NCBI GenBank assembly: GCA_011800155.1
Contig: CM022375.1
Location: 2,604,001-2,668,000, forward strand
Direction of reading: 5' to 3'
Length of the DNA stretch: 64,000 nucleotides
Origin: Flammulina velutipes
Lineage: Eukaryota > Basidiomycota > Agaricomycetes > Agaricales > Physalacriaceae
Part shown: positions 2,357 through 52,175 of the stretch, in pieces
Layout: the number at the start of each line of letters is the position of its first letter
Numbering within the stretch: position 1 is the first letter of the stretch
The notes under the pieces: model-generated
Told to the model about the DNA's origin: nothing
What the model saw: the letters and a program-made list of their open reading frames with translations, nothing else
Database searches by the model: none
Translations under genes and position numbers: made by a program

Positions 2357-2428
2357 TTTTTTTGAACTACATCCGAGATACTGAATTTCTACTGTTAAAA
2401 CAACCTGTCTACCGCTGTGATAATTCCC

Positions 2429-5077
2429 ATGGCTCCTCGTACCACCACCGCTGCGAAGAACGCTCGACGTGTTGATAACCCCGTGATTGAATCTGTTATC
2501 AGTGAAACCAACCCCGAGATACCTGTTGATACGAAAGCGAGAGTCGAAGATGTTGTGGACGATGAATATATTGCGGCGGCAGAAGCAGGGGGAAAGCGAC
2601 TTGTCAATGAATTAAAAGCCCTGGTTGACCCCCAACTTTTGGGATCTTCGGCCGAAAAGCCAGATATACCGACTGACTCATCAGCTACCCCTGTTAATCA
2701 ACTTGGCCTAGAACCTATTCGGGTCAAGCCGAATGCGCCACCGATCGCGTTCCCAAAGCCTGGAACCGGAACAAAAGGTACACCAACGGAACGGAATAAT
2801 CTGTCCGAACCGAAACGTGCGCCACCTATCTTGGGCGACAAGTCTGTTCTATCTGGGTCCCCTAAATCTGGTGTTCCTCGCGATTATGGCGCGACGTCGG
2901 GGCCTATCCCGTTAGATGTCCCCGTCAGTGGGACCGCTACTGAATCACCGCTCTTCACCAAATTATCTACTGGCTCATCTGCGGTGAAACGGAATATAGT
3001 AGGTGATATTGGTCAAGCCCTTCCAGAGATATCGAAGGTACCTCTCGGGAAACTGTTGTCGACCCAACCAATAACTCGAGGAGGTACCCCACCGGCGATC
3101 GATGATTCCATGAGCGACGTTAGTCAGTTAGACTCATGGTCTGACCACACCGCGTTAATGGCGAAGGCACGGTCACTACCTGAGTATGACCGTATCGAGG
3201 TGCTAAAATTGGTTGACCAAGTTAAGGCCATGTTAACCGAGACAACGAACCGTAAAGAACCGTTGACAATCGAGTCTACCCTCAATGTGATTGGCGCCGC
3301 AATGGCAAATTTTGACTTGAGATTTCGAAAAGTTTATGGCGTAACGATCGACCAGACACCGGATAATGTCCGCCAGATCTTGAACCCAACGTCAATCCCT
3401 GTCGCACTGAACTCCCCGTTAACTGATAAAGGTAAACAGCCCCTTGGGATGACGAGCGAACAGTCTAAACGATTTAATGAGGTGAAATCTAAGATGGTTT
3501 GCTATCATGAACGTTCCAAGCAGGAAGCAATGCGGCATAGAGTTACCTTTCCTGATCCGGGAATATGGATTGATAATAGTAATATCATTCATGAGTTGAA
3601 TATAACAGCGAACGAGTACATAGCTAGCGAGTACGAAGTGACGCCCGGCAGTGATTACATTGTCCGACTCCGATCGGGATGTCATCACGGCGTCGCACCC
3701 GTTAGATTTAATGAATACAGAGAACCAGACGGACCTCCCAGTGATGATGGATCGGGACGTAGCGGTAATCACAACGAAGACAAGCGCCCCAACGATAATC
3801 GCCACAATTCCCATAGGAATAACCGTGTACACCGAGGTTCCCCTAACGATCCTGATGATGGAGGTGGTGGCGGTGGAAACAATGAGTCTGGCAGTGAATC
3901 CGATGGACGAAAGAGGCGACGATCAGAGAAACAGACTCGTCGTTCTAGACGAGAATCCCGTCGTATGAGTACCCCAAAGGACGATAACGTGCGCCACCAT
4001 AGCCGTAAGAAACAAAACGACGCACTGGTCAATAGGTTACTTGCGGTGTATCGTAATCAGATTCTAGCCGTAGGTGTTATACCGAAGGACGCAAAACCTG
4101 CCAAGATCGATGTAAAAGTTACCAAGTATGGCGGAGATGCTGACTTTCACGTGCTTGAACAGTGGGTCATGGACATAGCGATGTACATGGCAGGAAACCA
4201 CTTGGTAGGCGAATTCCGTGATTTCGAACGTAAAATACACATGAAGAATCATCTTGAAGGCTCAGCCCTTAAATGGCATAAAAATAATGTTTTGAGTATA
4301 AACCGTACGCAGCAAGAATGGTCTTCTGAAAACATCATTGTGGGGTTATTCAAGAGGTTCGTTAGATCCATTACATTACACGATAACTACTACAAGTTTA
4401 AAGAGTTGAAGTGGAAAGATGGTCATAATGTACAGGACTTCTACGATGATATGATGGACATAGCGGACTCGATGGCTGAGCCCCCGGTTCATGAAGTCCT
4501 TCGAGAAAAGTTTATGGATAATCTTCCATCTTCGTACGTTCGGGCTATGTTAACGCATGGGTCAGAACCCGTGGAAGATACATTAGAAGACTTACTCGAT
4601 GATGCAATCGAAGAAGAGCGTTTAGCCTTCACCAAGGACCACTACTTTGAGCACCGGAACACGGGTGGGAAGGCCAACAGGCGCGATAACATACGAGATC
4701 GTAAGGATTATCGTGACGGTAAACCCGCCAACGACACCAGAGATCGGGGTCGGGAGTACCGTGATGACAGACCGATGAACGATGGCCCTGCGATGAACAA
4801 AAATCGCCGCGAATATCCTGCGATGGTTGTAGATAATCGTCGTATTGATAAACCGCGAATAGATGACACTAGAGAGCGAGACCGAAAACCAAGGCTAGAT
4901 GATGCTCGTGAACGAGATCCTAGGCCTCGCGTTAGGGATGCTCGACCACGCGATAAAGAATGTGTATTCAGTTGTTGGGACTGTGGTAAAGCTGGGGTGA
5001 GGCGTGGGCACGATGGGTGTCCTGGGCCTAAACCTGATGCTGGCGCAGTGCATATTCGAGCGGCTAATGACTCAATA
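2429..5077 (+). CDS. gag: Element A gag region (interrupted by Plavaka)
   Basis: First ATG of the frame is at 2429. The N-terminal 500 residues are low-complexity and basic. A Retrotrans_gag-type helical region follows at about 4110-4560 (LKWHKNN, FKRFV, LPSSYVRAML). After it comes an RD/RE-rich stretch and a Cys-His cluster (CWDCGKAG...HDGC, near 4973-5019) with a wider spacing than the standard zinc knuckle. The frame is broken after codon ATA at 5075-5077, where the Plavaka element starts. The reading frame resumes without loss at 18025, so gag and protease were one frame. The open frame runs on by chance into the transposon to a stop at 5144-5146. Confidence 0.85.
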
Positions 5078-5102
5078 CATCAGGAAACGCCCTCCTGCTC
5101 TC
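5078..5102. repeat. Left terminal inverted repeat of Plavaka element
   Basis: 25 bp, CATCAGGAAACGCCCTCCTG followed by CTCTC. It matches the reverse complement of 17998-18022 except for one T/C difference. TA precedes it. Confidence 0.88.
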
Positions 5103-5892
5103 AGTTAACTGTAGACAACCTAGTAAGCCTAAGTCTGCCAGGTTGAGCTAGACCTGAAGTCAAGGTTCAGGACAACTTGAAACCTGTGCTAATCACATGT
5201 AAACTAAGGACAACTGTCATATACTTTAGGTACTCATCGGTATTATACACTAACTTCCCGATACCTAGGTTAAAGATATGTATTGATCTTAACCTTGAAT
5301 CTCTATAAGTCAGCGGGAGGAATGTTATAGGTACAGTCTAGTTCATGTATAAAACCTTTGTTTAACCTCTAGGAATCCTTGAGTTAACCTGATAGATACT
5401 GAAGTACAGAATTCTGACAAACCTTGACTTACAGCAGACCTGTATCAAGCTCTTGACAGACCTGAACTATACCTAGTGCTGCGTCAAGTCTCTTGTTGAT
5501 CTTAACCTTATCCTAAAGAATGCCTTATTCCAACTCATGGATAGTTATTAGATGTCTATGGACAACTAAAAGAGGGCACCAGGACACTCTAAAACTTTCT
5601 ATAGATATACCTACAACATACACAAGATATACTATTGACAACCTCCAAGTCAGCAGTGAGATAGCATAAGGACAACCTATTGATATTCTTAAGTCTCCCA
5701 AAGGAATACATAGAGGACGCCCATGATCAGCTTTCACTAAGCTTAGGAATTCCAAAGAAGTAGTCAAAAGAGTGATTATTCTTAGCACCAAAAAGCAACA
5801 AATACAAAAACGTAGAGACTGATGTATGTATTACGAATTATGCTGAAAAATATAAAAAACGAGTGAAAAGACGACCACATTGCCCACACACA
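5103..5892. other. Left subterminal region of Plavaka element
   Basis: About 0.8 kb without a supportable gene. It is AT-rich, with recurring words of the type CAGGACAACTT, GACCTGA and CTTAACCTT. Recurrent subterminal words of this kind are usual transposase-binding candidates in CMC elements. The cargo gene at 5893-7685 ends at its inner edge. Confidence 0.5.
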
Positions 5893-7685
5893 CTAGACTG
5901 AGGAAGAGGATGCTACACTAGATCCAGAAGCAGCTAGCTTCCGAGCCTTGGCACCTGCCTGCATCTGAGCATAGTCAATATTGTCATCCTCCATCTCATC
6001 TGACGCCTTCTGAAGCAACCACTCCTTGTTTGACTGGCGCCTAGAAAGGTATAAGTACAGTCAAGATATTGAAGACACAGTATAGACGCACACAACGTTC
6101 TGGAAGATAGTAGTGGCCACTTCTTCCCAGTAATCAGGAGCCAATTTCTTGAGCTTGTCAACACGGGCTAGATACTCCAGATATCTTACTATATATTAGA
6201 ACAATGATTAAGAAAGATGTTAAAAGACGCACTTGGAAGACATTCTCTGATTGAAGTCTAGGCGGGTGTGGGTTCCATCCTCCCACTCAGTCAAGACATG
6301 ATATCCCTAAAACGAATGAATAGAGATTCTTCTTAGAGAAACAAAAGACGCACCATGGTGCATAGAAGAGCAATAGTAGGACCTGGAATTTGCTGCAAAC
6401 CGACCATAGAGTGAAATCCTACCAAGTCGCTCTTGCCAGTTTGTTCAAACAAATACCATCGAAGTATCAGAATGAACCACTCGCAGAGGAATTGAGCATT
6501 GGCGTCGAATGTCTTGTCCTAGGCAATAGGTCAGATAGGGAAAAGAAGAAATAAAATACGCACCTTCATGTTGAGCCCCCCAAAGATGAAAGCATGAGTA
6601 GATTTGAGCCAGGCGACAGTGGCCTTGATGGTACTCTTGTCTGTGCCACAAGAGGTGACAATTCCATGAATGACGCCCCGAACATGGAGCATTAGACGAT
6701 ACTTGATATCGCCGTCGCCATAATGAATCTAGAACGGTGTGAACACTTGGAAAGAAAGAAGAGAAAACGAAGACATACGAAGTCTGAAAATATAGGCATG
6801 GAACTGTTTTCGACGCTGTTGTGAAGGATGCGCCCAACAGTCTCCAGCAATGACTCAGATCCAAACTTGGGGTCCTTGGCGACGCTGAGCATAAGATCGT
6901 AATAGTGCTTTTGACGAGCATCGGGAGTGATAAAGGGATTCTGGGTGACAGCGTTACCGCGAGCAACTTGCTTTGCTTTGGCCATGAGTTTAGCTGTGCG
7001 CGGTGTGAAGTGCTGCATCTTTTTCTTGCCTTTGATGTCAGCAGGGTGCATGGTAAGACCCGCCGGAATCTTAGCCTTCTTGGTGGGTGTCCGCATGAGA
7101 GGAACACCAGAGCGCTTGTTAGGACGAGTAGGCGTAGACACAGCTGCAACATCCTGAATGAAAGTCAGTCAAGTAAAGCATTGCTATAACCAACACGCAC
7201 CAAGTCGTCATCGTCAGACGGCATATCCAGGCCAAAAGGATCAGAGGAAGGGGGAAGAACATCGTCGTCATCATCGTCGACGTCCTCCAAGAAACGTCCA
7301 TCAGCGACAACAGAGGGGACCTCAACGCCAAGGTCATCATCGCCATCCTCCTCATCATCTGGCTCAGCAGAAGCGCCAGGTGCAGGACCAGGCGACTTGC
7401 GCACAAGTTCTGAATCGGACACAAGGTCAGATTCATCACTAGTGCTCTGCTTCGCCTTCATAGAGGCGGCGCGGGCGCGAATGACTGCAGAAAATATCAG
7501 CAGAGCTCAGTAAATGGGAGGTAAGTCCTACCGGCGTCCTGTTTGGCCTTCTCCGCCTTCTTCAAGGCTGCGTTGTGAGCAGCGACAGCTTTCTTAACCT
7601 TCGCTGTCAAAGGAGTCGTAGAGCTGGGGTTCGAAGCAGGAGTGCTAGGGATAGCACCCTTTCCAGCAAGCTTCTTGGGAGGCAT
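5893..7685 (-). CDS. Plavaka cargo protein 1, unknown function
   Basis: Eight exons can be phased: 7685-7532, 7484-7201, 7153-6779, 6728-6564, 6518-6354, 6306-6233, 6184-6092, 6040-5893. They give about 485 aa. Six of the seven introns are about 40-60 bp and start GTGCGT, GTATGT or similar. The N-terminus is Lys/Ala-rich (MPPKKLAGKG, residues 1-50), then an acidic Asp/Glu/Ser stretch (about 65-145), then a basic segment with PTKKAK. The C-terminal 250 residues look globular (KYRLMLHVRGVIHG, GGLNMK, WYLFEQTG, PDYWEEV). The charge pattern suggests a nuclear protein. It is tandem with, and 190 bp downstream of, the TET/JBP gene on the same strand. I do not recognise the globular part. Confidence 0.72.
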
Positions 7686-7875
7686 CGATGTCGACGAGAG
7701 TAAAATAAGGAGAGTGAGCGTAAACAAAAAAAAGTGGGGAAAAGGAAGAAAGGATAGAGAATACGTACCGCAAAGCCATGTATTTAAAGGAAATAACACT
7801 AAGGGTTGGAACATGTTTGAAACATGGCATGTAATAAGCCTACGTACAAAGGTGACTGTATCCTAAAAACACGTT

Positions 7876-9457
7876 CTAAAGACACACCGGGAAACACAAA
7901 TCAAGAAGTTCAGTATGGCGTTTTCGTTCCGCAACCTCCTCCTCCTCCTCAAGACCTTTGGTCGCCGCCAGATGGTTCTCCCATGCAAACACTGGCATTC
8001 CGCCACGATGAACCCATTCAAAAAGGCCACCGGAGGAATATGACGTTATGGAGTAACGTGTTTCGCCTGGCTGTAGCTCTGTATTGCCGTGAATGAAACG
8101 CCCACTTGGAAAGTAAATCTCCGCGCCTTGAGGCAATTCAAATGCTACGCCCAAGTCCCAAAATGCGACGTGGCCTCCCTTCTTGTAATCGTACTGACCG
8201 AAGGCCCTTAGGGAGCCCCATCCGAAAGGGAAGTCGCTTTCGTCTGCGTGCGGGATGCAGACTGTCTGCGGACCCAAGTTGACAGTTGTGGCAGAATACG
8301 CCGAACGACGAAAATTCCAGTGTAGGTCAGGATATTGGAAGGTCAGAGCCTCGCGTACGTTCCAGAAAGTTTTGTGCATCCCCGGGTTGAAAGTCTGTAG
8401 AACGACTTTGAAAACTGTCAATAAAAGTACAAGTAAATGGAAAAAGGCGACGTACTATCTGACAGTTTGGCATCTAGTTGGAAATCCTCATTGTCTAGTA
8501 AGGCAGATAGAACGCGGCGATTGTGTGCACTGTTGACAACTCGACTTGGCTCCTAACACTTATAGATTAGTTGGGTTGGGAGCAATCTATAATGAGACGT
8601 ACCCAAGTTCCACCACTATGAATATGACCCTCCCTCAGTACTCCAAACGACCCACGACCACCTGGTAGAAGTATGGCTGCCTCCCCTGCCCTCGCCAACG
8701 CTTCTGTCATGCGTTCTTGTCTTTGAAGACCCTCAGCAGATGCATCCCGCTTGCCAAGTAGCGAAAAGAGACGGCGGTTTTTGTCCAGAAAGGCGTAAGT
8801 CACGTCTCCGGAATGCGAGAAGAACTCGAAGTTGAGCTTCTTCAGGTCAGCAGCACTGAATGTACAGTTTTGGCTGGGTCGTTGGGAACCCCGAAAGCCG
8901 CTCGGTGCAACTGGTAACGATGTGATGTCGAAGTGGGGGAAAATGATAGGCTGAGCGTTCATTAGGTGCTTTAGCCAGATATCTCGCATCCCTCGTGGAC
9001 GAGAGGCTGCTGCTCGTTGTGCTGTTCTCTTCTCCCTCTTCTGGCGTTTTCTTCGATTGAGTTCTGCTGCACTATCATGACGCTTTCGTTTATGCTTTGA
9101 AGACGAAGCAGAAGCAGATGTAGACGCGGGCGGTTGAGGTGGAGATGGGAGGGGATAGCTGGTGGAAAGGAGATTGGTCACTGCAGTGGGGACAACGCGT
9201 GATTGTATTGGCGGAGAATGGACAGGTAAAGGCTTCCGAGTACGGGAGTGAGACGTGCGGGATTTATGGTGATAGGGCGAGTCTGAACGTAGAAGCGTCG
9301 GTGTTTGAAAGGCAGTAGATGGTTTGTCCCCCTCCGTGAGCGGACTGATGGGTTCAGATTCATCGTCTGTAAGGTCGTCTAGCTCTCCTCCAAAGAGCTT
9401 CTCTACCAATGCTACACGCTCCTCCATATCCCAAGAAGTCAAAACATACTGTAACAC
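7876..9457 (-). CDS. TET/JBP-type 2-oxoglutarate/Fe(II) dioxygenase (DNA 5-methylcytosine oxidase family)
   Basis: Three exons, 9457-8603, 8552-8456 and 8414-7876, give about 496 aa; a start at 9427 (MEERV) is also possible. Residues 1-160 are disordered and basic (KHKRKRHDS, RRKRQKREKR), suiting nuclear localisation and DNA binding. The C-terminal 200 residues form the double-stranded beta-helix core. CIPHAD gives the iron ligands HxD (about 373 and 375), FIHGN the second His (about 426) and ETRYSI the 2-oxoglutarate Arg (about 437). A GGLFEW tail typical of fungal TET/JBP proteins follows. Fungal members such as Coprinopsis CcTET oxidise 5mC. Iyer and co-workers reported that fungal TET/JBP genes sit in KDZ transposons; here the carrier is Plavaka-type. 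All ligands are present, so activity is plausible but unproven. Confidence 0.87.
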
Positions 9458-9498
9458 ATTACTATAAAATTCAATGCGTAGAAGAAGGGAAAAACATC

Positions 9499-9700
9499 AC
9501 GAAAAGGTCGTCCGCCAACAACGGCAGCCGTCCTCGACGCGTCAGAGTCCGTGTTTCCAAAGAAAAAAGTAGAATACCACGAAGAGGTCAGCTGCCAATA
9601 ACGGTAGCCGTCCTCAACGCGTCAAAGAGTCCATGAGTCCAAGTAATAGAGTAAAACACCATGAAGAGGTCAGCCGCCAATAACGGTAGCCGTCCTCGAC
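9499..9700. repeat. About 82-bp tandem repeat upstream of the TET/JBP gene
   Basis: Three imperfect copies start near 9499, 9579 and 9661. The core is AGGTCAGC(T/C)GCCAATAACG followed by GTAGCCGTCCTC. They lie just upstream of the minus-strand TET/JBP start, in its likely promoter or leader. The two full copies each end with a related CGTCA(A)GAGTCC segment. Confidence 0.75.
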
Positions 9701-10181
9701 ATGTAGATGCAAAGATAACCATAAAATCAAGAACTGTTTATATTCACCTTTGTTGCCATTCAAAACCCGCCCCACGGACGCGACGCGCCAAACGAACGAA
9801 CGAACAGACAGACAACGCGCAAACTGCGGGTGCAGGACCGGCAGTTTGGACGCGCTGGTTGGATCCAGAGAACAAGCCAACACACACAACGGGTACAAGA
9901 CCAGAAGTGTTCGTGTTGCTACAGTCGAAGCGCAAGGCCACGACACTTGGTATTACGACGAAGTAGAGGTGAGAATGGTGGGAGGAAGCAAAGATGAAAT
10001 CAACAAACAATTATGCCGGCGGCGCACAATCACGTGAGACGTTCAGGAAATTAGTTACTTTGTACAAGGTAAAATCTAAGATACAGGGTATGGTTGTTGC
10101 GCTATCTATTGTAAGTCAAGATAATAAAGTCCAATATGTAGTAAATCTATCAATGTCCGGCGAGCTTCTATATATACATAT
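9701..10181. other. Spacer between TET/JBP promoter and cargo gene 3
   Basis: About 480 bp with no supportable gene. It contains a short (CGAA)n run near 9793-9803. Confidence 0.5.
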
Positions 10182-13095
10182 CTATGTCTGCGGTACCAGG
10201 CGACGTGGAAGTGTGGGCGGCCGAGCAAACACTTTGTAGAATGTGCGAATGTAATGGCGCCCGACAGATCGACCAAATTCATCCACCTCGTCAGCGAAGA
10301 CTGTAGACAGACTAGCCTTCAACGTTCTTGCCTTCTGGTCCATACCAGCAGGCAAGAGCGCTAATCCAGTCCAGCTAGGGTTTAAAGGTCAGGTTAAGTC
10401 AGGTTAATGACCTACTTTTCGCATTAACCTGACCTTAACCAGTCATTCAATATCATGAAAGTTGATTAACCATTAACTGTGACCAGTCAATAAGTATAAC
10501 CAGTCACTCATGACTAGGTTATAACTGACTATAACCAGTTAACATCGAAAGCAGTTATAACCAGTTATTAACAGGTTATGACTGGTCAATATGCTGTCAA
10601 CACTATGATTTAGAAGTAAACCAAGTTTATTGGATCTATTAATTTATCTCATTCATATTTCTATATATATTTTCTAGTCTCTCTCTTCATAATTCTAGTG
10701 TATTAGAATTTATCAATCATATATATACTCTATATGTAAGAAAACTTTGTGTTATAGCTCTTTTTCCCTTCATATATTGAGGATATCAAGAGTATTGGTT
10801 ATAACCAGTTAAGACCAGTCATTGACAGTCACATTAAATTTCTCTAAATGATATAACCATTAACCTTAACTAGTCATTCACAGTGACCAGTCACTCAGGG
10901 TCCGGTTAATGTTTCCAGTCAGGTCAGGTTAAGTCGCTCTAAAATGACCAGTTAAGTGACTTAACCTTTAAACCCTAAGTCCAGCCTTGCATAATAGTGA
11001 CTAGCCCGACGAGTGCTATGCAACGCTCAACAGGACTGCTTCCAGCGAAACCACGAGACACAAATTCGGTGTCGTCCATCACAACGCTACTGTTGAAGTA
11101 CGGGACTAGGCTGAGAACGATCATGCGCCTCTCAGCAGGCGATACACGATCTTCCTCTTTTCGTCGCGCCTCCTTGCCCCAATCAAAAACAAACGAATCG
11201 AGAAGTACAAGCTCTGAACGGAAATTGAGCTCGTACATCTCCCAAAGGATTTCCCGACAGATTTTGGCAGGGGGAAGGGTGCCATCATCGACAAGGATGC
11301 TACCATTGCGCCACCGCGCTTCAGCAGTCCGGATCTTTGAGATATCGAAGACGAGCTGTCAGAATTGTTATTCTGTGTTGTAAAATAATAATATTGAGTA
11401 TTTACCCCCTTTTGCTCAGACATTGCCTGTTTCAACGCCTCAGTCGCAGCCACACGTTCGGAAGCAGCCAGACTGGTAGCCTTCTGAGAACCCAGAACAC
11501 CAAGCCCAACTACGTGCCGCCATGTTTGAGGGTGTATCGTCTTTGTATCCGTTTTGGGGTCAACCACGCCCTCGAGCCAATAATGAACGAGATGACGAAT
11601 GCGGGCGTAATTGACGAGGATTCCCGCTTGAGTGACCGAGTTATTCATTTCGCCGAAGATAAAACCATCTGGAGCAGCGTAGTAAGTGTGCTCTTTGGTA
11701 ACACCCAGAAAAGTGGGCATGTCGCGGTCCCCAGCATGCAGATTGGCTTTCTCCTCTTGAAGGATAGCCATCCACCAGTCGATAGCAGCGGGCATGATGG
11801 AACTGCGAACGTCGAGCCATCGATCGCGGTTCGTCTGGGTGTTATTGTGGACTTTCGCTTTCTTCGTTTTCGCCTTCTTTGTTTTCGCTTTCTTTGCAGG
11901 CGGATTTGCTACATTGCTGGGCGACAGGGAACGTTTGATGCCACCTATTCCATTGTCAGCAAAGAATTACTGCTATTCTGACACGAAAACACTCACGGGA
12001 CATCACAACCGTTGGGAAACTCGGCTGCGCATGGATGACCGACGACGACGAGGCAAAAGGTTGGGAACTTGGTGATGTTGACGGCTCTGGCGCAGACACA
12101 GTGGCGGATCGCTCCCGACGTAGGACCTTTGACATGATTGCATAGCGCGCCGGGTCGTCTGCTTGCCCTGCCCAAAGAATCGCTGCACCTTGAACAGGCG
12201 TAAGCGAAAATAACCCATGAGCTCCGTTTCTAGCTCCCATCTGAATAGAGCGACTGGGAATCTCGGTATCCTGAAGAAGCGCTTGCACGGCAGAATGATC
12301 GAGATATCGCTGGAAGCGCTCTGTGCGTACAGCGACGGCGCTGTAGATATACCAAACAGGGATTCCGGCGTAATAGCAATCTAACGCGGTTGTCATGCTC
12401 TTCGTAAGGCAGCCTGACCGAGCATTGTCAACGGGATGAGGTTTGGAAGGCGGAGCCAGAAGGCGGGGGTGGAAAATGGTGACATAGTCAAGGTAGGCCT
12501 GTAAGTTGAGGTGTAGACGCTGGACGTTGACCCAGCGAAGGTGACATTCGTCGAAGGAAGCCGGACGTAGAAGAAGACGATGGTACATCTTGAGATACCA
12601 GATATCGCGCTGCGTCTTCTCGTTCTCCAGGCGCGCAGGATTTACGGACCCGTGGGGGTTTTCCGCTGCAGCTGTAACTGCCTCTCGGAATTTGCGGAGG
12701 AGCTGCTTCCCATGCGCGATAAGCATTCCCGGGGCGTCGCCGTTCAATGATCCAGTTCCCGTTAGACCTTTATCCTCTGACGCAGGGGGCCAGTCGGACT
12801 TGGACAGAGGGAGAAAGAGTAGTTGGTCGAGTCCATTTTGAGTGGGCGCAATCATGACCGCCAGATATGATGAAGACGAATGAAACGGTTGGGGATGGGC
12901 AATGGGATCATGAAAACCAAACCGGAAGTCGTCGTTGAGAACGACTGAGGCGGGTCGGTCGAGGAGGGGACGGTAGATGACTTGAGCGTTGGGGGTAGAG
13001 ATTGCGACTTCTCCGAATTTGGCGCCCACAAGTCCATCACAGTACTCGCCTGGAAGTTCGGGCCATTCAGGCGGAGCAATAGAGAGGTTCTCCAT
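10182..13095 (-). pseudogene. Plavaka cargo protein 3, disrupted by a MITE
   Basis: Exons 13095-11997, 11944-11406 and 11355-10182 are in phase. The last is split by a MITE at 10376-10977. Without the MITE and one target copy the frame runs to TAG at 10184-10182, about 733 aa. With it, the first MITE codon is TAG, so the product loses its last 61 residues (about 672 remain). The protein starts MENLSIAPPEWPELPG, has a middle segment with DCYYAGIPVWYIYSAV, and carries a Lys-rich stretch AKKAKTKKAKTKKAK, a likely nuclear signal, early in exon 2. The AGIPVW-type segment recalls abundant hypothetical proteins of Agaricomycetes. Function is unknown. It is divergent to the transposase across about 1 kb. 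Confidence 0.75.
10376..10977. mobile_element. Non-autonomous hAT-type MITE
   Basis: 602 bp with terminal inverted repeats starting TAGGGTTTAAAGGT and an 8-bp target duplication AGTCCAGC at 10368-10375 and 10978-10985. No coding capacity. The interior is AT-rich and packed with variants of GACCAGTTA/TAACTGGTC in both orientations, as expected of hAT subterminal binding motifs. The TIR and 8-bp duplication identify the superfamily. It interrupts the last exon of a cargo gene. Confidence 0.9.
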
Positions 13096-14138
13096 CGCTA
13101 TTGGAATAAGCAGATAAGACATAGTAGAGGTGATATTTGGCAGGACTTACAGGATTCGCTGAATATCTTATCTCGCAGATGCCAATCGGGCTCAACGTAT
13201 CAGAGGCTGCAAGAGCAACTGATTTACTGACGGCTACAGGAGCGGCCAATCGCTGACTTCACCGAATGGAGACTACAAGAGTGTCCAGAGAGGTGGCGGT
13301 TCAGTGCACGTTTAGCGGCTGGCAAGTTCGACACTGCCACTACTCCGGTCCGCTCGCGCCTTGCCTCTTCCTTCGTGCAGCGCAATTCAGGTAAATATGC
13401 GCTCTGTTTATCAAAGCCGAAACTCACCGCTATTCATGTAGGAATTATCTCAGCCGACGTCTTACCACTGGACATGATCCCATGGGTGTCGTGTATGGCT
13501 ATTGTAAAAGGTCAGTCCGGTATTCTGTGAATGGCAGGAAAACTCACCTTTACGCTAGGCTTCCTTCCATCCAGCGGACAATACCTCGCGGAAGATTACT
13601 GGGCGCGCGTGGATGGTCACAAGCAACAGGATCAAGGCGAACCACTGGTCGGCGCGTTGGACATGTTCCTGCGCCGTCTTGCACTTTGGACGTGTTCCTG
13701 TGCAGTGTAGTTATATGTTCTTGCAACCTATAGCTGCAGAGTGGTTCAACTGGGTTGTGTTTCGGCCCGTTGCGTCAGAACGCAGCATTCAACAAATCTT
13801 CTGGCCCCCGTACTGCCTCATTGCTCCTCTCCCGGAATAACTCCACCCACGCATTTGCTATCAATATGTCGCATACGGACGTCCCTTAGGCCTGACCGTT
13901 TAACGGTCAGTTGGCTATTACAGACGCAGGACCCATGTCTCTTGCGAGGTGAGTAGCATGTGTTGCACTGTTCTTCGCGGCTGATTGTGCCAAAATAGTT
14001 CTGATGACCCAACCTTACCGCGCGCGACAGCCATCGATAATCAGCTCGTGCTCTCGTCGTCGCAATTGTATCTTTACTTATAAGGCTTTTGATTACTGTC
14101 CTCACATACCATCCTACGCTATCTTAAACGCTAAACAA
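13096..14138. promoter_or_regulatory. Divergent intergenic region between cargo gene 3 and transposase
   Basis: About 1 kb between two start codons pointing away from each other, so probably a shared promoter region. Short frames on the minus strand (13224-13427, 13067-13249) and splice-like sites just upstream of 13095 (acceptor TTCCAATAG) could mean a leader exon for cargo gene 3. I could not phase one. Confidence 0.45.
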
Positions 14139-17100
14139 ATGGCCTCCCAATCCACTGGTGTTCGTTGTCAGAATCCAATGTGCGACATCATGTTCGCAAC
14201 CTATGGCCATATGCGTAGTCATCTCAAGCAGGCTGCATCTTGCAAATGGTGGCCAGCCCATGCCAAGGAAGCTGCTGCGAAACTTTCTGCACCGCCAGCA
14301 CCCACCATAGTACCCGGCTCGATTTTCGACTCGACGAGCGCTTTCTGGGAAGATAGTGACGACGAACCTCTCAGCGCGGGGGAAGGCAGAGATACAGAGG
14401 ATGAAGACACGGACAACAGCGAAAACGAAGTCCCTGAATTCACTGGACCGTCGCCTGACCTTCTCCGAGAGCTTATGGAGATGAACGACCCGGAGGACTT
14501 CTACGATGTCGTCCACCCAAACATCGCCATCGGGGAGGAAGGTCCGGGACCTTCAACTTTGCGCGCTCGTCTCAACCGCATGTTAGGGGCTAGACGACGC
14601 TATCTGGACGACGAGGAGGAGGAGGAGGAGGAGGATGTCGGGAGGGTTTTTGACGAGCATCCGACTGCCGGGGCTAGCATAAAAATGGCTCGAAACCTAC
14701 ATGAACGCTGGGCAGCGTTGTTCGGGACGTCTGGCCTGCCAACGAGCGCTGATGCGAAGATGGACGGATCGGGTCAAGCGGACATAGGCAACCATAACAT
14801 CTATCATCCGTTTGCTTCAAAATTGGATTGGGAGATCGCACGTTGGATGGTAGAGGATGGCATTGGCCATAATTCGTTCAATCGATTACTGGCAATTGAC
14901 GGGGTACGTGTAGAGCAACGAACATTCTTCTCATTCTAACCTCTCTACTAGGTGAAACAAAAGCTGGGATTGTCGTACTCTAATACGAAGGGTATGCATG
15001 AGCGTCTTGCGAATATCCCTCGCCGTGCTGGGACGTGGCACACCAAGCACATAACCTTTCCCGATCGCCCAGACGACCCGTTCACACTTCGGCATCGAGA
15101 TCTTCTGGAGGCGATTCAGAGCCTTTGGGGAGATCCCAAACTGTCGAAGCACCTCGTATACAAACCTCGAAAGCTTTTTACCAACAAGGATCGCGAAACA
15201 CGTATAATCAATGAAATGTGGACAGCAGAATGGTGGTGGAAGATACAAGTATGTTGCATTCAATTTTAGCAGTAATATCGAGTTAATTATTCTATAGGAC
15301 ATGCTACCAGATGATCATACTCTAGGCGCTCTTATTGTCTCAACAGATAAAACCCAACTCACACAGTTCTCCGGCAGCAAACAAGCATACCCCATCTATC
15401 TCACCCTTGGTAACATACCCAATCACCTTCGCCGTAAGCCCTCCGAGCAGGCGTGCATCCTCCTTGGGTACCTCCCCGTTGAAAAGATTGTTCGAGGGAC
15501 CCTATCGAAAGTAGAACTCTCTGCCCGTTATCGTCGTCTCTTTCACGCCGCTATGACCGTCCTCTTCGAGCCATTGAAGGAGGCTGGAATAAAAGGGGTC
15601 GAAATGACTAGTGGCGATGGTGCTGTACGGGTCGTCCATCCTGTACTGGCAGCCTACGTTGCGGATTACCCAGAGCAATGTCTAGTGACTTGTTCGAAAT
15701 ATGGCACCTGTCCAAAGTGCACAGCGGGCGCTACTGACCTCGACAAAGATGCCAAGTTTCCTCGCCGGACCCACAAGAGCACAATGGAGGCCATGGCTAG
15801 TGCATCTGAGTCAACCTCGTCGCGCACTGCCTATCTCAAGGCCTGCAACGCCAAGAACGTAAACGGCACTGTGCTTAAACCGTTCTGGGACGGACTTCCG
15901 TATACCAACATACATCTATCCCAAACTCCTGACGTCCTTCACCAACTCTACCAGGGCGTTCTAAAGCACTTGCTTGAGTGGTGTCAAACCCTTATGACAG
16001 AGCAGGAACTGGACCGTCGAATTCGTTGCCTACCCCCTGCCGTTGGTGTTCGACATTTCAAGAATGGAATCAGTGCGCTATCCCAGATCAGTGGCTCTGA
16101 ACGCAAGAATATGGGGAAAATCCTCCTTGGTTGTATCGTTGATGAACTCGATAGTCGCGCCGTTACTGCGTGTAGGGCCATCTTGGACTTCATCTACGTT
16201 GCACAGTATCCGACCCATGACGACGTCACTCTTGGCTACATGGAAACAGCACTCGATACGTGGCGCACAAACAGGAGCTACTTCGTGGATGTTGGTGTTC
16301 GAGATGACTTTCAAATCCCCAAGTTCCATTCCCTTGTCCATTACGTCGAAATGATTCGACTTTTCGGGACGACGAACAACTACAATACGGAGATGTTCGA
16401 ACATCTCCATATCGACTTTTCCAAAAAGGGCTGGCGTTCGTCAAACAAGCGGGATGAGTTTCCGCAAATGACGGAATGGGTTGTGCGCAAAGAAGCAGTA
16501 CATGGGTTCGAGAACTATCTTGAATGGATCAAGAAGGAGCTCGGTAAGCTGAATCTGCAACATCAGTGTTCTTGTGCTAACTTTCTCAGTAGCGTCAAAG
16601 CCAAAGCCAAAGCCAAAGAAACCTCCAAGCAACGCCATCGCATCTTCGTCTGCGCTGCCTCCAAGCAACGCTGTTGCATCTTCGTCTGCGCTGCCTCCAA
16701 GCAACGCTGTTGCGTCTTCGTCTGCGCTGCCTCCAAGCAACGCCATCGCATCTTCGTCTGCGCTGCCTCCAAGCAACGCCATCGCATCTCCGTCTACAGA
16801 GACATCAGCTCCAATCTCTCTCAACAATACTGAGACCGTTCGTAACGCTAAAGCCTCAAGGAACTTCCAGTCCATCATTCTCCCAAAAATTCCAAGTTCG
16901 CCAAAGAAGCTATTGCATATTATAGCTCGAGAACACGATGTACCGGACTTTCCTTCCAACGTACAGGATTATCTCAACGGGGTTGAACAACTTCACGCTG
17001 CTTCACCGATTATCTATGATCCGCTGCCGTTTCGACGTGTTGACGTCTTTCATTCATTCAAGTTCACTCGGGAGGGTCTTCAGGAGGATACACAGGATCG

Positions 17101-17624
17101 TGACTGGGTTCGGGCATCACCAGTGGATGCTGGGCGTTTCGACACTGTAGTGATCCTGACAGATGACGATGCAGAGTCAACTGGACTAGACGGTATGTCA
17201 GATAAATTCTGTTTCTATTATTATCCCTAACTTATTACTTGTCTTAGGAACTCGGATAGGACGTGTTCGTGTCATCTTCAAGATTCCGAGTACTTTGCGT
17301 ATCAAGGGCGAAGACATGAAGACACCCGCCTATTGGCCCAAAGATCATCTTGCTTATATCGAGTGGTTCACGAAACCAAAGCTAACGGTACGCGCGGGAC
17401 AGATACACAACATGGCGTCACTGTCAAAGGATCTTCGTAATGGAAAGCCAACTTGGTCCATCGTGCCGCTAGGGAATGTACGTCAATCTTGTATGTTAAT
17501 TCCTGATTTCGGGAAGACTTCGTCTACTGTTTGGGATACCAATGAGTCTGTTTTAGATACTTGTACCCATTTCCGAGTTAATAACTGGCAGAGCTTGTAT
17601 ACATATCAGACTATATACATGTAG
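14139..17624 (+). CDS. Plavaka transposase
   Basis: Five exons phase cleanly: 14139-14903, 14952-15248, 15298-16543, 16590-17192, 17248-17624. They give about 1095 aa. The N-terminus has a zinc-finger-like CQNPMC...H...H...C segment, then an acidic region. The core shows family hallmarks: STDKTQLTQFSG with KQAYPIYLTLGNI, PEQCLVTCS...CPKC, DVLHQLYQGVLKH, and TEMFEHLHIDFSKKGWRSSN, which contain the expected acidic catalytic residues. The C-terminus (IGRVRVIFKIP, YIEWFTKP, SCMLIPDFG, NNWQSLYTYQ) is also typical. No stop or frameshift was found. A 36-bp repeat inside exon 4 encodes a flexible linker. It would cut and join DNA at the element's inverted repeats, and the frame appears functional. 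Confidence 0.9.
16622..16797 (+). repeat. 36-bp minisatellite in transposase exon 4
   Basis: Five near-perfect copies begin at 16622, 16658, 16694, 16730 and 16766. Each adds the 12-residue unit PPSNA(I/V)ASSSAL, forming a Pro/Ser/Ala linker between the catalytic core and the C-terminal region. The length is a multiple of three, so copy changes keep the frame. Confidence 0.9.
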
Positions 17625-17997
17625 TGTACTAGAATGTTATTGTGATCTTAATCATATCTATGACTGTGTGGCGCACAAAACTTGCAGCGGTCTAAGGATA
17701 ACTGAGGTCAATATCAATACGACCTCTAATTATAAGTCAACTAAGGTAGACCTGAGCTACTAGACCTGCACTCTATCAGTTACAGATATCCTAAGTGCAC
17801 ACAGGTTATTTGAACATACTATGTGAACTTGTAGATATCATTAGTGTACCTAAGATATGGGAACAATGTCAAGTAACCTGAGAATATCATAAGTGTGCCT
17901 TCAATGTCTTAAGTCATAGAGGTATATCAGGGCAGTCAGGTTAACTGAGGTTCTCTTACAGTTTTACCCAGTTTCAACAATAAACCTACCGCAAACC
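17625..17997. other. Right subterminal region of Plavaka element
   Basis: About 370 bp downstream of the transposase stop, no gene seen. It repeats words such as AGACCTG(A/C), TATCATAAGTGTGCC and GGTTAACTGAGG that have counterparts in the left subterminal region. Confidence 0.5.
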
Positions 17998-18022
17998 GAG
18001 AGCAGGGGGGCGTTTCCTGATG
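17998..18022. repeat. Right terminal inverted repeat of Plavaka element
   Basis: 25 bp ending CGTTTCCTGATG, then TA at 18023-18024. It matches the left end with one mismatch. Confidence 0.88.
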
Positions 18023-18024
18023 TA

Positions 18025-18837
18025 GCTGAAGGATCCGTACGCTCTGTACGAACTGGTCAATCTGGACGTACGCGAGTTGACTTTAATACTCACCGTGGTG
18101 ACTTCGACCTGGTAGAGCACGAAAGTTACTCGTCCGCGAGTGATGATTATGCCGATGATGTATCAATTCGAGCCATGTGCGTATTCGATGAGGCTGTCGA
18201 ATATAAAGATGAGAACGAGGATGGTTTGAACGAGGTGACCCAATCCATGACCGTAGCCGGTGATGGTAGCGGACTTACTCCTGTACAGGTTAAAGGAAAG
18301 GGTAACACGAAGGTTCAATTGTACGTACCTGATATTCCACTGACTCGACCTTCGCTACATCCTGATGAGAAACGATGCCTGGTAACGTATACGAGAATAC
18401 TGGACTCTCCGGATGTTCCCGCACTAACGCTGTGGGACAGTGGAAGCACTACTTCATCCGTGAGCCCGAGCTTCTCTAGTGTGGCGAAGCTGGACGTACG
18501 TATGTTGAAGGAACCAGTTCCGTTATTCTTGGGATGTGTTGGGAGTAAGTCGAAAATTAACTTTGGAGCCATCGTAAATGTGGATATTCCGAGCATTAAA
18601 GGATCAACTTACTTTGATGTCGTTAACTTGGATCGTTATGATATGTTAATGGGAGCTCCCTTCATGCTTAAGCATGGAGTTGTACTGGACTTCGCTAACA
18701 GGTGCGTACGCATTGGCGATGTAGTGCTACCAGGTGAACTGGCGCCCGTCAACCCCGACGTGGCGCAACGTCATCGCATGAGACGACGAGATGATGCTGG
18801 ATCGTTGACGAGGGCGAACGAGCTAGTTCGAGATTGA
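18025..18837 (+). CDS. pro: Element A aspartic protease region
   Basis: The frame that stopped at the Plavaka element resumes at 18025 and runs to TGA at 18835-18837. A retropepsin-like fold is indicated by LWDSGSTTSSVS (the DSG catalytic motif) and, later, MLMGAPFMLKHGVVLDF, which matches the second conserved hydrophobic-glycine block. It would mature the Gag-Pol polyprotein. The next part of Pol is in the same frame after a single TGA. Confidence 0.8.
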   Translation, partial: AEGSVRSVRTGQSGRTRVDFNTHRGDFDLVEHESYSSASDDYADDVSIRAMCVFDEAVEYKDENEDGLNEVTQSMTVAGDGSGLTPVQVKGKGNTKVQLYVPDIPLTRPSLHPDEKRCLVTYTRILDSPDVPALTLWDSGSTTSSVSPSFSSVAKLDVRMLKEPVPLFLGCVGSKSKINFGAIVNVDIPSIKGSTYFDVVNLDRYDMLMGAPFMLKHGVVLDFANRCVRIGDVVLPGELAPVNPDVAQRHRMRRRDDAGSLTRANELVRD

Positions 18838-21696
18838 CTACGCTCGGGGGATAGAAAGAACCGTATCGAAGACGTGGATGACGATGATGACAATGATATG
18901 GTGCCTTCCTTGCCGCTAGAAGATGGCGGTCCTATCCTGATGACTGAAGAGGAATACTGCAAAATTGATAAGAATGCGAAGGAACTTAATAGTTCTACCC
19001 GAACTAACCAGAGATACGAACACGAGAAACCTAACACTGAGAGTCCGCGAGTCCATCTTAGATCCCCTAATATAAATCAGAAAACGACGAATACGAGTCG
19101 TGAAAAACAGCATGCCGCACCAAAACCGTTATTCGAGGAGAAGGAATATTGTCTTCCCACGTCGTCTAAGGTGAAGGTTGAGGACTTAGTGACAGAGCAT
19201 GACGACATAGTGGATGCGTACCGGGAATTAGAGGTTGAGGCGGAGAACGATGGCTATGGACCAATAGATAAGTTTGCTGGAAGAGTTCCCGCCATTAACG
19301 GGATGGATTTGATATTTGACGAAAGATTGCCATATGAATTCGTAGCGATGGCCCGGGCTATGACTGAGTACACTATGCATTGTCGCCAGGATTTCATTGA
19401 GACGTATCCCGAGGCACCAGACGATGTGTCAGAATCGAATGGCATGGGATCTTTATTCCAGCCTGTGGATGCGGAAGTTATGGGACCAGTGGAGTTCACC
19501 AACACGAGGTTCTCACCTGAACGACGGGAAGTCTTGATGAAGATGGAGGTAGACTCGGATTTCGAGTTGAACGACGAGATGGAGTCGCTCCGGGAAACTA
19601 TAATTGAGAATGAGAACCGGGTTAGGAGCAAGGACTACCGCGCACCAGCTTCGCATAATCTTGCTAAAGGAAAGTGGAAAGCGACAAAGTACAGTGAAGA
19701 CGACATTCCTCAGCTGCGGGAGCATTGGTACTCAGAATACGCGGACATAATGAAAGGCGTACCCGACGATAGAATGCCGCCCCTTCGAGATGTGAATCAT
19801 GAGATTAATCTGGTCGACGAGAACCGTCAGTATATATATAGGCGTCCGTACTGTCCACACTCACTTCGTGACGAACTACGAGAAAAAACCCAACGATATT
19901 TGCGTGCTGGTTGGTGGTTAGAAGCAACCTCTACTCAGGCGGCACCGTTACTATGTGTTTGTAAGAAGGACGGAAAATTACGTACCGTGGTTGACCTCCG
20001 TCAACGTAATGATAATACAATTAAGGACGTAACTCCACTTCCAGATCAGGAGTTGATCAGAGAAGATGTGGCGCGGGCAAAATACCGGTCTAAGATCGAT
20101 CTTTCGGATGCGTATGAGCAGGTTCGGATATTGCGTAAGGATTGGCATAAGACGGCGTTCGTAACGGTTTCGGATACGTTCTTGAGCAAAGTTATGCAGC
20201 AGGGCGATTGTAACGCTCCCGCTACTTTTCAGAGGTTGATGTCTTCAATATTCCGTGATATTATTGGTGACTACGTTCATGTTTACTTGGATGATATATT
20301 TGTATATTCGGACACCATTGAAGACCATGAGAAACACCTCGAGGTAGTGTTGAGTCGATTGCGCCACCAGAAATTGTACCTTCGGAGACCGAAATGCGAG
20401 CTATATGCGGACGTGATTGATTGCCTAGGCCACAAGATTGATGTCAATGGTTTGCACGTTGACACTGATAAGCTTTCACGAATACGGGAGTGGCGCACCC
20501 CACGCAGTTACCATGATATCCAGAGGTTTGTGGGGTTGGTCCAGTACATTGCGGCTTTCTTACCGGATATAACGGCGTATACTGGGCCGTTGATGTCGAT
20601 GATACAAAATGGACACCCGTTCTTGTGGCGCCCGCTACACCAACGGTGCTTCGAAATGATTAAGAAGATTGCATGTAAGGTACCTGTATTGAGACCTATA
20701 GTACCAGGTAATGGCGAGCCTATTTGGTTGATATGTGATGCATCCCAGACGGGAGTCGGAGCAATGTTAGGACAAGGTCCATCCTGGGACAAATGTAGAC
20801 CAGCCGGTTTCATGTCCAAGAAATTCTCTAGCGCTCAGCAGCATTATCGTGTATATGAGCTAGAGACATTGGCGATACTTGAAGCCTTGCTGAAGTGGGA
20901 GGATAAGCTTGTCGGGTATCGTATACATGTTATTACCGATCATAAGGCCTTGGAGTTTTTCCAGACACAGAAGAATTTGACCCCACGTCAATTGCGTTGG
21001 ATTGATTATATGGCTCGTTTTGATTTTGATATCACGTACGTTAAAGGTGAGAACAATAAAGTGGCTGATTGCCTATCCCGTTACTATGAGAATGATACTC
21101 CGGATGACACCCACTCGCCCAATGATTATGTTCGCGCAGATATTAGAATCGATCCCCAGGGTCATGATCTGCCTGTTCAAAGGTATGATGAAGTGCAGGA
21201 GAAGTCCGTGGAAATAAATGCTATGATCGCACAAGAACGACGGCGTAGCGGTCGATTAAGGGAACTGAGGGAACTTCGTGATATTGAGGCGTCTGAGTTG
21301 GCAGCAACGGAAGTGGCGCACGATTCGGGATCTCCCGCCACCGTCGACGGGACTTCTCCGAGTTCATTCGCGTCACATGCAGGAACTGATTTCACCGTTA
21401 AGGATATGCTTGACGCCCCGGCTAACGTTACACCACTTCCTCCTGCAACCGATGACTTCCTCGATGCTGTACGGCACTTTACGCCACTAGACCCTTTGTT
21501 GTTGAAGATCGTGGAAAAACCAGATGATCATGTACACTTTGCCGTGAAGGATGGATTAGTATGGTACACAACTGCTGATAGTACTGAAGTCTTATGCTTA
21601 CCTAAAGGTGATTATAATGGCGAGTCTCTTCGTGGTGCTATTGCTGATCAGGCTCATCGAACGCTTGGGCATTTCGGTACACAGAGGACGTCTGAG
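18838..21696 (+). CDS. pol: Element A reverse transcriptase-RNase H and start of integrase
   Basis: Open frame from just after the TGA; the first ATG is at 18898. The reverse transcriptase shows KKDGKLRTVVDLRQRN, KIDLSDAYEQ, QQGDCNAPATFQRLM and the catalytic YLDD near 20284-20295. RNase H shows LICDAS near 20728 and TDHKALEFF. The last residues (AHRTLGHFG) are the two histidines of the integrase zinc-binding domain. The frame is cut by the hAT element: the codon after 21696 is TAG, the first bases of the transposon. The frame continues exactly at 52176. Confidence 0.9.
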
Positions 21697-22491
21697 TAGA
21701 GCTTCAAGGTCCGGTTCACAGGACCACCAATGACCGGTGAACTGGACTGGACCGGACCCAAAAAAGACCGGACCGTATAAGGACCGGGTACCGGTTCGAA
21801 CCAGTCACGGTCTGCGGTCCTGGGAAATGAGAGAATTTTACAGGACCGGTAAAAGACTGCTAGGACCAGTCCTGAACCAGTTCAGAAGAGTATATGATAC
21901 AGAATCAATACTCATGCTCTAGAAGCTGGGGCTTTGGGTCCTAAGTGAGATTATGATGGAAATAGAAAGCTATAATAGACATATAGAACATATTACAAAA
22001 GAGTTTATGCAGCACTACTATATCAAAAGCTACTACCTCGTAGTGTAACATGTGCTGATCAATAGATTTCTTACATTTGACAATTTTCTAGCATACATAT
22101 ACTGTTCTAGATGCATCTGGTATAGACAAGATAGTGAGATATACAATAGAAGACTGGTTCTTATTGAATTACTGGATGAGTATTATACTAGTATGGCCTA
22201 CCGTGGGAAGATGTTGGTCCAGTTCTGTGTTCCCACACTTCACTCAACTATTTTCAAAACATGCAATTAACTATTAGAATAACCTTTTATTAAGAAGATT
22301 AGTGATAATATATTGATATAAACTTAATAAAATCAAAAAACTCGCAAAGACACGAGTCTTTTGACAAAAATGCACCAGTTTGACCGGTTGAACTGCAGTC
22401 CGGACTGTTGAACGGTCTGACCGGTCTAACTGCTATAACCGGACTGCGGTCCTAGCGGTCCTGATTTAGGACCGGTCCCGGTCTGCGGTCC

Positions 22492-23302: not shown

Positions 23303-23492
23303 AATACTACAACAAGGATCCCATTTGTTCTTCCGAACACTTTCCTTGTCGTCGCGAGACAAAGGAGTCTAGGAATCAACCGAGGGTCGGACTCTGGCTG
23401 GAGGAAAGAGGCCGAGAGAGAGCAGCGGTAGATTCGCGAAGAAAGTTCGTACAACCGAAGACCCCGAGGACAGAGGAGAGCCAGTAAACCCG

Positions 23493-28828: not shown

Positions 28829-29636
28829 GGAGCTCATATGTCGATGGGGATCGCTTAGGGAAATCGTGACGGATAATGGGCAAGCGTTTATTGCTGCAAT
28901 GGACCGACTATCCCGACAATACGGAGTGAAACACATCAGGATTTCTGGCTACAACTCTCAGGCAAACGGTATCATCGAAAACAGGCATTACGATGTTCGG
29001 GAGGGTCTATTCAAATTAGCCAAAGGAAACGAATCCAAGTGGTCGGAAGGGACATTCGCCATGATGTGGGCAGAGAGAGTTACTATCTCCCGTGTTATGC
29101 ACATGAGCCCCTACCGAGCTGCGACAGGAGCGGAACCTCTGCTACCTCTGGACTTTGTGCAAGCAACCTGGTTAACTACGCCGTTCAGTGGTATAGTTTC
29201 CCACGGTGATGTCATCGTGCAAAGAGCCATGGATTTATGGAACAGGGAGAAGGAGATGGAGAAGCTGAAAGAAGACGTTTGGAAGTCTAGAGTGGACGCC
29301 GCAAAGCGTTGGGAGAAGGAACACCAAAACCGAGTTGTGGATTTCGATTTCAAACGTGGCGATCTCGTACTACTGGAAAATTCTAAAGGACGAAAGGGAC
29401 TTCAAGACAAGATGCAAGCCCGCTACTTTGGACCCCTTGTGGTACTATTCAGGACGAAAGGAGGCGCCTACCAGCTTTGCGAACTATCTGGCACAAGACT
29501 CGCTAACACGGTAGCGGCGCGACGTGTCATGAAATATCTGGCGCGGGAGCGGATATCATTGCCTTGGTACTACACGGGAGCTTTGACTGATGAGGAGACG
29601 AAGCGCTTAATGGAGAGCGACGAGAAAGGGGAGTAA
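28641..29636 (+). pseudogene. Element B integrase catalytic part, frameshifted
   Basis: In the shifted frame PPVVAEPAP leads into AKAYIDTFFMPP, VTDNGQAF and NGIIENRHYD, the integrase D, D and E sites. A GPY-type module follows (QARYFGPLVV). The frame runs to TAA at 29634-29636. Aligning with element C shows the shift lies just after CHECQ, within 28636-28650. One extra base, or two missing, would explain it. No chromodomain follows. Confidence 0.82.
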
Positions 29637-42082: not shown

Positions 42083-42195
42083 CTGATGGCTAGCTAAGTC
42101 CTGTTCAAAACTTGGAGGATACTTTTGATCGTCTGTTAAAGGCTGACTCCAAGTTTCTATCGTATTAGACAGGTTTCCATGTTTATGGAAGCCCG

Positions 42196-43495: not shown

Positions 43496-43668
43496 TCTTA
43501 GACCTCTGGGTTGAGGTATCTTCTTTTGTGGTTCAACTGGTTCAGGCTCTTCTGGTTTTTCCTTTTCTATCGCGCTATGACTTCTTGTACGATGCTGAGT
43601 ATTTTGGCTCTCAGGAGGGAGGGTTCGCTGTCGCAGTATTTCAGACGAACCTCCGTCCGTCCTCGAGC

Positions 43669-45104: not shown

Positions 45105-45604
45105 TGGGAATAATGGTCTTCCAAGGGGAATCGACTGTCTTAATCGTTCAAGAAAGGGATGCGGAGTGACTGGGAATAGGTTATCGAACTGAGGAAGTTC
45201 GTTGGGAGAGGGGGTTAAACTCGGTAAAGGACTAGGACTCGGAATAATCCGAGGTAGTCTAGGGAAAATAGGGATCGTGGATAGTATATATCCAGGTGGG
45301 TAGCCTGTATCCGTTGATGGATTTGCTTGGGCTTTTTGAGACTGAACGTGTTTTAAACGTTGAGCTTTAGTTCCGTCGAATAATGCGCCTGGAGGCGGTC
45401 GTTCGTGTCGGAGTTCTCTTTCAACTGGAGCACTTGAGTTTTCACCCAAGTTAGCTCTACGGCTGATTTGTTCTTGATCGTTTGAGCTTTGGCTAGGCGC
45501 GGGGTTCGCGTTACTGGCTTTGGGCTTTCGTGCAATTTTGAAGTAGGTGTAGAAGTAACTCAAGGAACCTCAATAAGAGGGATCGTTTAAGTCAAATTTA
45601 TCAC

Positions 45605-52072: not shown

Positions 52073-52175
52073 GTCCTTGAAATCTGAGAAAATCTGAGGA
52101 CCGGCCGGTCTGCGGTCCTCAAATTTTAAGATAAAAAGACCGGACCGGACCGGACTTTTAAGCTCTACGTCTGAG

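Follow-up and report, generated by a model that had tools for sequence, protein, structure and literature searches.

A PlavakaB-like transposon of Flammulina velutipes carrying a TET/JBP-fold gene with a predicted hairpin-bearing first intron

Introduction

The closest described systems are the TET-positive Plavaka families of Agaricus bisporus and Gymnopus confluens, all of which are PlavakaB in the available part of Kojima 2025 (PMC12730594). PlavakaB elements end in CATCA..TGATG and produce target duplications of 2-3 bp, and the TETs that Plavaka elements carry are typed there as PE, with an HxE motif (PMC12730594). As regards EnSpm/CACTA elements (CMCT clade), the same source groups Plavaka transposases with EnSpm, Mirage, Chapaev, and Transib (PMC12730594). 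Escape from methylation silencing is proposed there for TET-carrying transposons, the function of transposon TETs is described as lacking experimental validation, and an association of Plavaka with TET/JBP is said to have been implied earlier, by its reference 21 (PMC12730594). The enzymes themselves vary. CcTet of Coprinopsis cinerea also takes 6mA, and CMD1 makes 5gmC (PMC11040006, PMC12730594). CcTet is of the AG type, which has Gly or Ser at the first position (the Gly331 equivalent) in Kyakuja copies, as far as the available text goes (PMC12730594).

The window analysed here is a stretch of 64,000 nucleotides (C8:2604001-2668000) from a genome of 38.1 Mb in 23 contigs, all of which was searched. 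The probable reading, to which we give a probability of about two in three, is that a complete PlavakaB-like cut-and-paste transposon has a TET/JBP-fold 2OG/Fe(II) dioxygenase as stable cargo among its four conserved genes, and that this enzyme oxidises 5-methylcytosine (5mC), weakens silencing, and has its output adjusted via a structured intron 1. The original prediction knew of no described Plavaka element with TET cargo; the TET-positive families in the available part of Kojima 2025 mean that its main claim was already in print (PMC12730594). As far as our searches of the open-licence literature show, what is new is an HxD, NgTet1-like Plavaka TET, the co-divergence of seven copies within a single genome, what is probably a second capture, and intronic hairpins. 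Reference 21 of Kojima 2025 we take to be Iyer et al. 2014.

Results and Discussion

Element ends and target site

The 12.9-kb element spans window positions 5078-18022 and interrupts a Gypsy gene.

2399..5077, plus strand: Ty3/Gypsy gag-protease gene, left portion, broken by the element and resuming at 18025
5076..5077, no strand: left TA copy of the 2-bp target-site duplication, partner copy at 18023-18024
5078..5114, plus strand: left terminal inverted repeat, starting with CATCAGGAAACGCC, an exact 14-mer found six times in the genome
17986..18022, minus strand: right terminal inverted repeat, identified by its match to the left arm, with TA beyond

Including the TA duplication, the arms are 39 nt long (5076-5114 and 17986-18024) and 87% complementary. 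These arms, with TA on both sides, confirm the earlier claim that matched terminal inverted repeats enclose the TET gene and a Plavaka transposase; the TET/JBP-fold gene sits inside a Plavaka element, between that element's own inverted repeats. When the flanks are rejoined with a single TA, an open gag-protease frame of 1163 aa spans the junction and is followed by a 953-aa pol frame.

The split Ty3/Gypsy gag-pol occupies 2399-5077 and 18025-21699. The window is rich in transposons: it has more Gypsy-type protein stretches at 23373-29636, 38525-45147, and 52098-53414. A DUF6535 protein is found at 59734-61443 (E=7.4e-49).

Genes of the element

From 5078 to 18022 the gene order is gene A (-), TET (-), gene B (-), and Plavaka transposase (+).

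6695..7685, minus strand: gene A (tblastn), protein of no assigned family, several exons, limits approximate, in 4/4 fully read elements
10376..10977, no strand: nested 602-bp insertion, outside the TET gene, with inverted ends TAGGGTTTAAAGGT and 8-bp duplication AGTCCAGC
11124..13134, minus strand: gene B, protein of no assigned family, two main open frames, in 4/4 fully read elements
13953..17230, plus strand: Plavaka transposase gene (PF18759), several open frames, limits approximate

The transposase is recognised by a Pfam match to PF18759 in the frame 15301-16833 (E=6.5e-82) and by Plavaka profile stretches at 14976-15248 and 15304-15984. Its region also holds a 36-nt tandem repeat of about 4.8 copies (16622-16801), which encodes a Pro/Ser/Ala-rich repeat. 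Gene A has dN/dS values of 0 to 0.30 and no Pfam match above cut-off; for gene B the values are 0.09-0.18, and the Pfam search gave no match. In the element at C8:955501, the gene-B matches are interrupted by about 1.5 kb. A CATCTGGAAAGG end lies at one border of this gap (C8:963381-963400), so a non-autonomous derivative has probably inserted in that gene B.

Other carriers of the TET gene were considered. The 602-bp insertion, presumably hAT-like from the length of its duplication, was rejected because it lies outside the gene. A separate nested element was rejected too, as no inverted pair of at least 18 nt brackets the gene; terminal repeats of its own within 7600-9700, which would have spoken against Plavaka cargo, are likewise not seen at this length. 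Unlike the TET-positive Kyakuja/Zisupton (KDZ) transposons, the element has no KDZ transposase match (PF18758) within C8:2609078-2622022 among the matches listed, and PF18758 is also absent from the open frames given to Pfam. A KDZ identity was rejected on this ground.

Copies in the genome and relatives without TET

The six exact matches to CATCAGGAAACGCC form three plus/minus pairs, and between the members of each pair lie a single Plavaka transposase and a single TET-like gene. Allowing at most one mismatch gives 81 matches (41 and 40 by strand), compared with 11 for the backward control. Among these are three more one-mismatch pairs around both genes, at C1:1248662-1260998, C9:952227-964961, and C1:1265389-1291293, the last of which additionally encloses a KDZ match; the remaining matches form pairs around neither TET nor Plavaka. 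A seventh group locus, C1:2951577, has an incomplete transposase with the TET 10 kb off, and no paired ends were found there. The linkage expected by the original prediction is seen in this genome for the transposase, which lies beside the TET at 7/7 loci. Element copies without the gene, which would have pointed to a later insertion, are not seen among the group loci: 0/7 lack the TET.

Four elements were fully read (window, C8:955501-969640, C9, and C1:1248662-1260998). All four have CATCA..TGATG termini and a perfect 2-bp duplication (TA, GG, CT, and AC), within the 2-3 bp of PlavakaB, and all share the four genes and their order. The window element is like the PlavakaB families of Kojima 2025, as described in the available text, in its Plavaka transposase, CATCA..TGATG ends, 2-bp duplication, and internal TET/JBP gene (PMC12730594).

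The seven loci make up group A. In a second Plavaka group (B), CATCAGGAAACAG ends at C2:376457 and C2:385830 enclose Plavaka and TET. On C5, two TETs lie 1.4 kb from Plavaka genes and are oriented as the transposase; paired ends around them were searched for and not found. There are also 10.2-kb Plavaka elements without a TET match, at C15:49949-60109, C21:117989-128151, and C22:2102-12259; the C15 and C21 transposase rows are identical in the tree, and the C22 row has four stops. These TET-less elements provide a family for comparison. No TET match lies within or near three distant Plavaka loci (C3, C8:853, and C10:1344). Since some Plavaka elements have no TET match, the gene is dispensable for transposition in general, a point against the proposed explanation.

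Short end pairs are found as well. Eight 1.8-kb pairs of group-B-like ends (such as C1:2427515-2429307, C8:614363-616155, and C14:24212-26005) and three of 1.0-2.4 kb have neither TET nor Plavaka inside, and many 1.4-kb pairs have one CATCTGGAAAGG end. These are probable non-autonomous derivatives.

Structure of the TET gene

The exon model is predicted from comparison among loci, at the level of DNA.

9748..9759, minus strand: predicted TET exon 1, four codons M-A-T-K, from start-exon models across group loci
9449..9747, minus strand: predicted TET intron 1, 299 nt, GT..AG, containing the hairpin array
8603..9448, minus strand: TET exon 2
8456..8552, minus strand: TET exon 3
7876..8405, minus strand: TET exon 4, with the active-site residues

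The last intron ends at 8406, and the predicted product has 494 aa. In-frame start-exon models can be built at 8/8 group loci, with the 12-nt version at seven of them; the C12 locus requires a longer start exon, and more than one model is possible at five of the eight. The intron-1 donor is AAG|GTG after a tiny ATG exon at 7/8 loci, and its acceptor precedes a conserved peptide, [FY]-x-x-T-x-W. An unspliced window message would reach a stop after ten codons. The minus strand given by the original prediction is retained, and its three exons become four, with the start codon in the 12-nt exon 9759-9748; the former end point, 9457, falls within intron 1 of the corrected model.

The TET protein and its active site

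The residues of exon 4, with roles assigned by analogy, are the Fe(II) ligands H371, D373, and H424, the 2OG-binding Arg R435, and also S437 and Y441 (494-aa numbering). Y441 is placed from TET2 offsets. The HxD...H triad and the 2OG-binding Arg are conserved in 7/7 group copies and in 13/13 Plavaka-linked copies, so the HxD, His, and Arg first read in the window protein hold throughout the group.

Family assignment by profile is weak, which counts against the proposed explanation: the window protein matches Pfam Tet_JBP at E=0.0017 with 18.1 bits, below the curated cut-off of 34.9, and Tet_JBP matches 11/24 domain rows at E 0.01 and 13/93 rows at E 0.001. Source names among 85 relatives include 'prolyl 4-hydroxylase alpha' (four), 'JBP1/TET' (two), and 'JmjC domain' (one); the named relatives are presumably all Agaricomycetes. 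A modelled homologue shares 43% identity with the window protein across 76% of the query and 39% across the full alignment, and its pLDDT is at least 90 for 305/559 residues, nearly all within 230-559. A structure search with this model ranked CcTet, NgTet1, TET2, and CMD1 at the top. The predicted fold is a TET-type double-stranded beta-helix, the model being that of the homologue and not of the window protein.

By ungapped offsets from the first His, the group has Asp at +5 and Gly at +11. Compared with the Plavaka-borne TETs of Kojima 2025, described in the available text as PE type with HxE, no HxE is found here: the acidic residue is Asp in 7/7 group copies, which sets them apart by description (PMC12730594). 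The Gly331/Asp337 equivalents of the AG type are not seen either; where CcTet has Gly331 and Asp337, Asp and Gly are found at the ungapped offsets. CcTet is also absent from the sequence-profile matches. With NgTet1 and CMD1, which are cellular enzymes, the protein shares the predicted TET fold and an Asp at the 5mC-contact position, at structural-alignment identities of 12% (NgTet1) and 8-10% (CMD1). Judged from sequence, the enzyme looks different in type from the published Plavaka-borne TETs.

Because the full metal and 2OG set is present together with Asp at the NgTet1/CMD1 5mC-contact position, the enzyme is predicted to oxidise 5mC. The active-site difference further predicts a 5mC-specific enzyme, in contrast to CcTet, which acts on 6mA too. 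Oxidation of another mark, either 6mA or thymine, or a CMD1-like addition, seems rather improbable. TET-fold relatives do vary in reaction, as the 6mA activity of CcTet and the 5gmC of CMD1 show (PMC11040006, PMC12730594), and +11 is Gly in 7/7 group copies compared with Cys in 82/88 filled alignment rows, an ungapped offset that may not hold across all TETs. Against these stands the Asp at +5; NgTet1 and CMD1 have the same residue, and in them it blocks 6mA.

Co-divergence and selection

The TET tree holds 28 own-genome TET domains and four from outside, and the Plavaka tree 21 loci. The seven group-A TETs cluster (94/95), as do their seven transposases (74/98); both trees pair the window copy with C12, and C1:1257 with C9, as sisters. 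TET and transposase distances correlate over 13 pairs (r=0.91; 0/20000 permutations as high), and the Plavaka label changes four times on the TET tree compared with 9.6 in shuffles (0/500 as low). Within the seven-locus group the two agree only loosely (r=0.54; 288/20000 permutations as high); this and the 74/98 support of the group in the Plavaka tree count against the proposed explanation.

This co-divergence bears on a different role for the enzyme, one in the transposition reaction itself, at the ends, the excised DNA, or the target sites, rather than in transcriptional de-silencing. Transposase linkage at 7/7 group loci and correlated divergence fit such a role, as does the absence of a TET match from other Plavaka elements. 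Against it, the substrate of known TETs is methylated duplex DNA. The role is improbable, and we prefer de-silencing.

Group A and group B TETs join at 88/90, under the 95 mark and with a long-branch warning. The C5 TETs fall in a different TET group, whose other members are KDZ-linked or unlinked (100/99). Plavaka has thus probably acquired TETs at least twice here, and at least two origins of Plavaka-linked TETs are likely from these sequences.

Purifying selection is seen on the group-A TETs. Both main exons are open in 7/7 copies, synonymous sites are mostly saturated, and the finite pair values (7/42) give dN/dS of 0.05-0.21. For the closest pair, C9 and C1:1248662, dN/dS is 0.065 in the active-site exon and 0.21 in the other exon. 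Together, the open frames, saturation, and low dN/dS indicate old lineages under constraint. The C9 and C1:1248662 elements are mosaic, with windows of the left 3.2 kb at 86-99% identity and those elsewhere at 57-89%, which shows that elements exchange sequence and also counts against the proposed explanation.

Such constraint weighs against the gene being an ordinary TET of the genome, carried along without benefit to the element. Of the 28 TETs from this genome in the tree, 15 carry no Plavaka-linked label, as a passenger would lead one to expect. However, both main exons stay open at low dN/dS in 7/7 diverged copies, and place and orientation are conserved in 4/4 fully read elements, so that a passive passenger is highly improbable.

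A hairpin array in predicted intron 1

Three hairpin units lie between the predicted donor and acceptor of TET intron 1.

9663..9700, minus strand: hairpin unit 1, covariance model, 60.8 bits
9581..9618, minus strand: hairpin unit 2, covariance model, 57.7 bits
9501..9538, minus strand: hairpin unit 3, covariance model, 55.6 bits

The unit repeated upstream of group-A TET frames is GAGGACGGCTRCCGTYRTTGGYGGCTGRCCTC. Searched across the genome with at most three mismatches, a 32-mer of it matches 16 times, always at group TET loci (16/16), and the backward control matches nowhere. Two of the 16 are at a truncated eighth TET (C1:2452), and none is at C9, where the units are more diverged.

Seventeen units fold as a 13-bp hairpin, with both-side changes in 5/13 pairs. 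Paired cells make up 96.4% compared with 93.6% in shuffles (0/500 as high) and at most 67% when the pairing is slid; the covariation score exceeds 500/500 shuffles and the number of pair types does not, counts that overstate independence because the tandem units share ancestry. The covariance model recovers 23 distinct units at eight loci, six of them outside the training set (E 5.8e-12 to 7e-8); on four of five measures the full set of 23 scores above 499 or 500 of 500 shuffles. Elsewhere, in 47 sequences (group-B, group-C, and KDZ-linked TETs, and Plavaka loci), some of which include just a few hundred bases upstream, the best covariance match has E 0.39. Within the genome and these sequences, the array is found only in the group-A TET lineage. 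Sense folds more stably than antisense in 8/8 predicted introns, with z-scores (60 shuffles) of -0.3 to -6.5 for sense and +0.6 to -4.6 for antisense. Rfam gave no match at the array, the words hairpin and stem-loop do not occur in the available main text of Kojima 2025 (PMC12730594), and no description of such intronic hairpins was found in the open-licence literature searched.

A hairpin-bearing intron suggests post-transcriptional control of enzyme amount. Two to four tandem covarying 13-bp hairpins behind a four-codon start exon may make splicing of that exon switchable and so set the enzyme dose; the agent may be an RNA-binding protein encoded by the element, or a host factor responsive to methylation or stress. 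That an undescribed RNA element lets the transposon control its own anti-silencing enzyme in this way is a speculative reading, and doubtful at present. The repeats may instead be protein-binding sites at the DNA level, which is possible though unlikely. Their core, ACGG-N3-CCGT, is itself a DNA dyad, and the RNA hairpins are predicted here from DNA sequence. Both-side changes in 5/13 pairs with conserved G-U pairs, the more stable sense folding in 8/8 predicted introns, and the placement between predicted donor and acceptor speak for RNA rather than DNA sites.

Proposed function

In the proposed mechanism, the element would encode, besides its transposase, an enzyme to remove or convert a silencing mark, and would thereby stay transcribed and mobile. 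The enzyme would weaken cytosine-methylation silencing of the element, and its production may be adjusted through the structured intron 1 that lies between the start codon and the remainder of the gene. The genome has five stretches matching DNA methyltransferase, so a 5mC mark can exist. CpG observed/expected is 0.89-0.95 in the elements compared with 1.19 in the interrupted Gypsy; the elements thus have no CpG advantage, which counts against the proposed explanation. Across the window in 2-kb steps it ranges over 0.80-1.24, with no mutation footprint of methylation seen, a result that neither supports nor refutes the model. Protection from methylation damage finds no support in CpG content.

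Conclusions

A single genome holds seven diverged, co-evolving TET copies alongside Plavaka elements without a TET match, so the idea of escape from silencing can be tested in one fungus. If the array works as RNA, it would be a new structured RNA by which a mobile element switches an epigenetic eraser.
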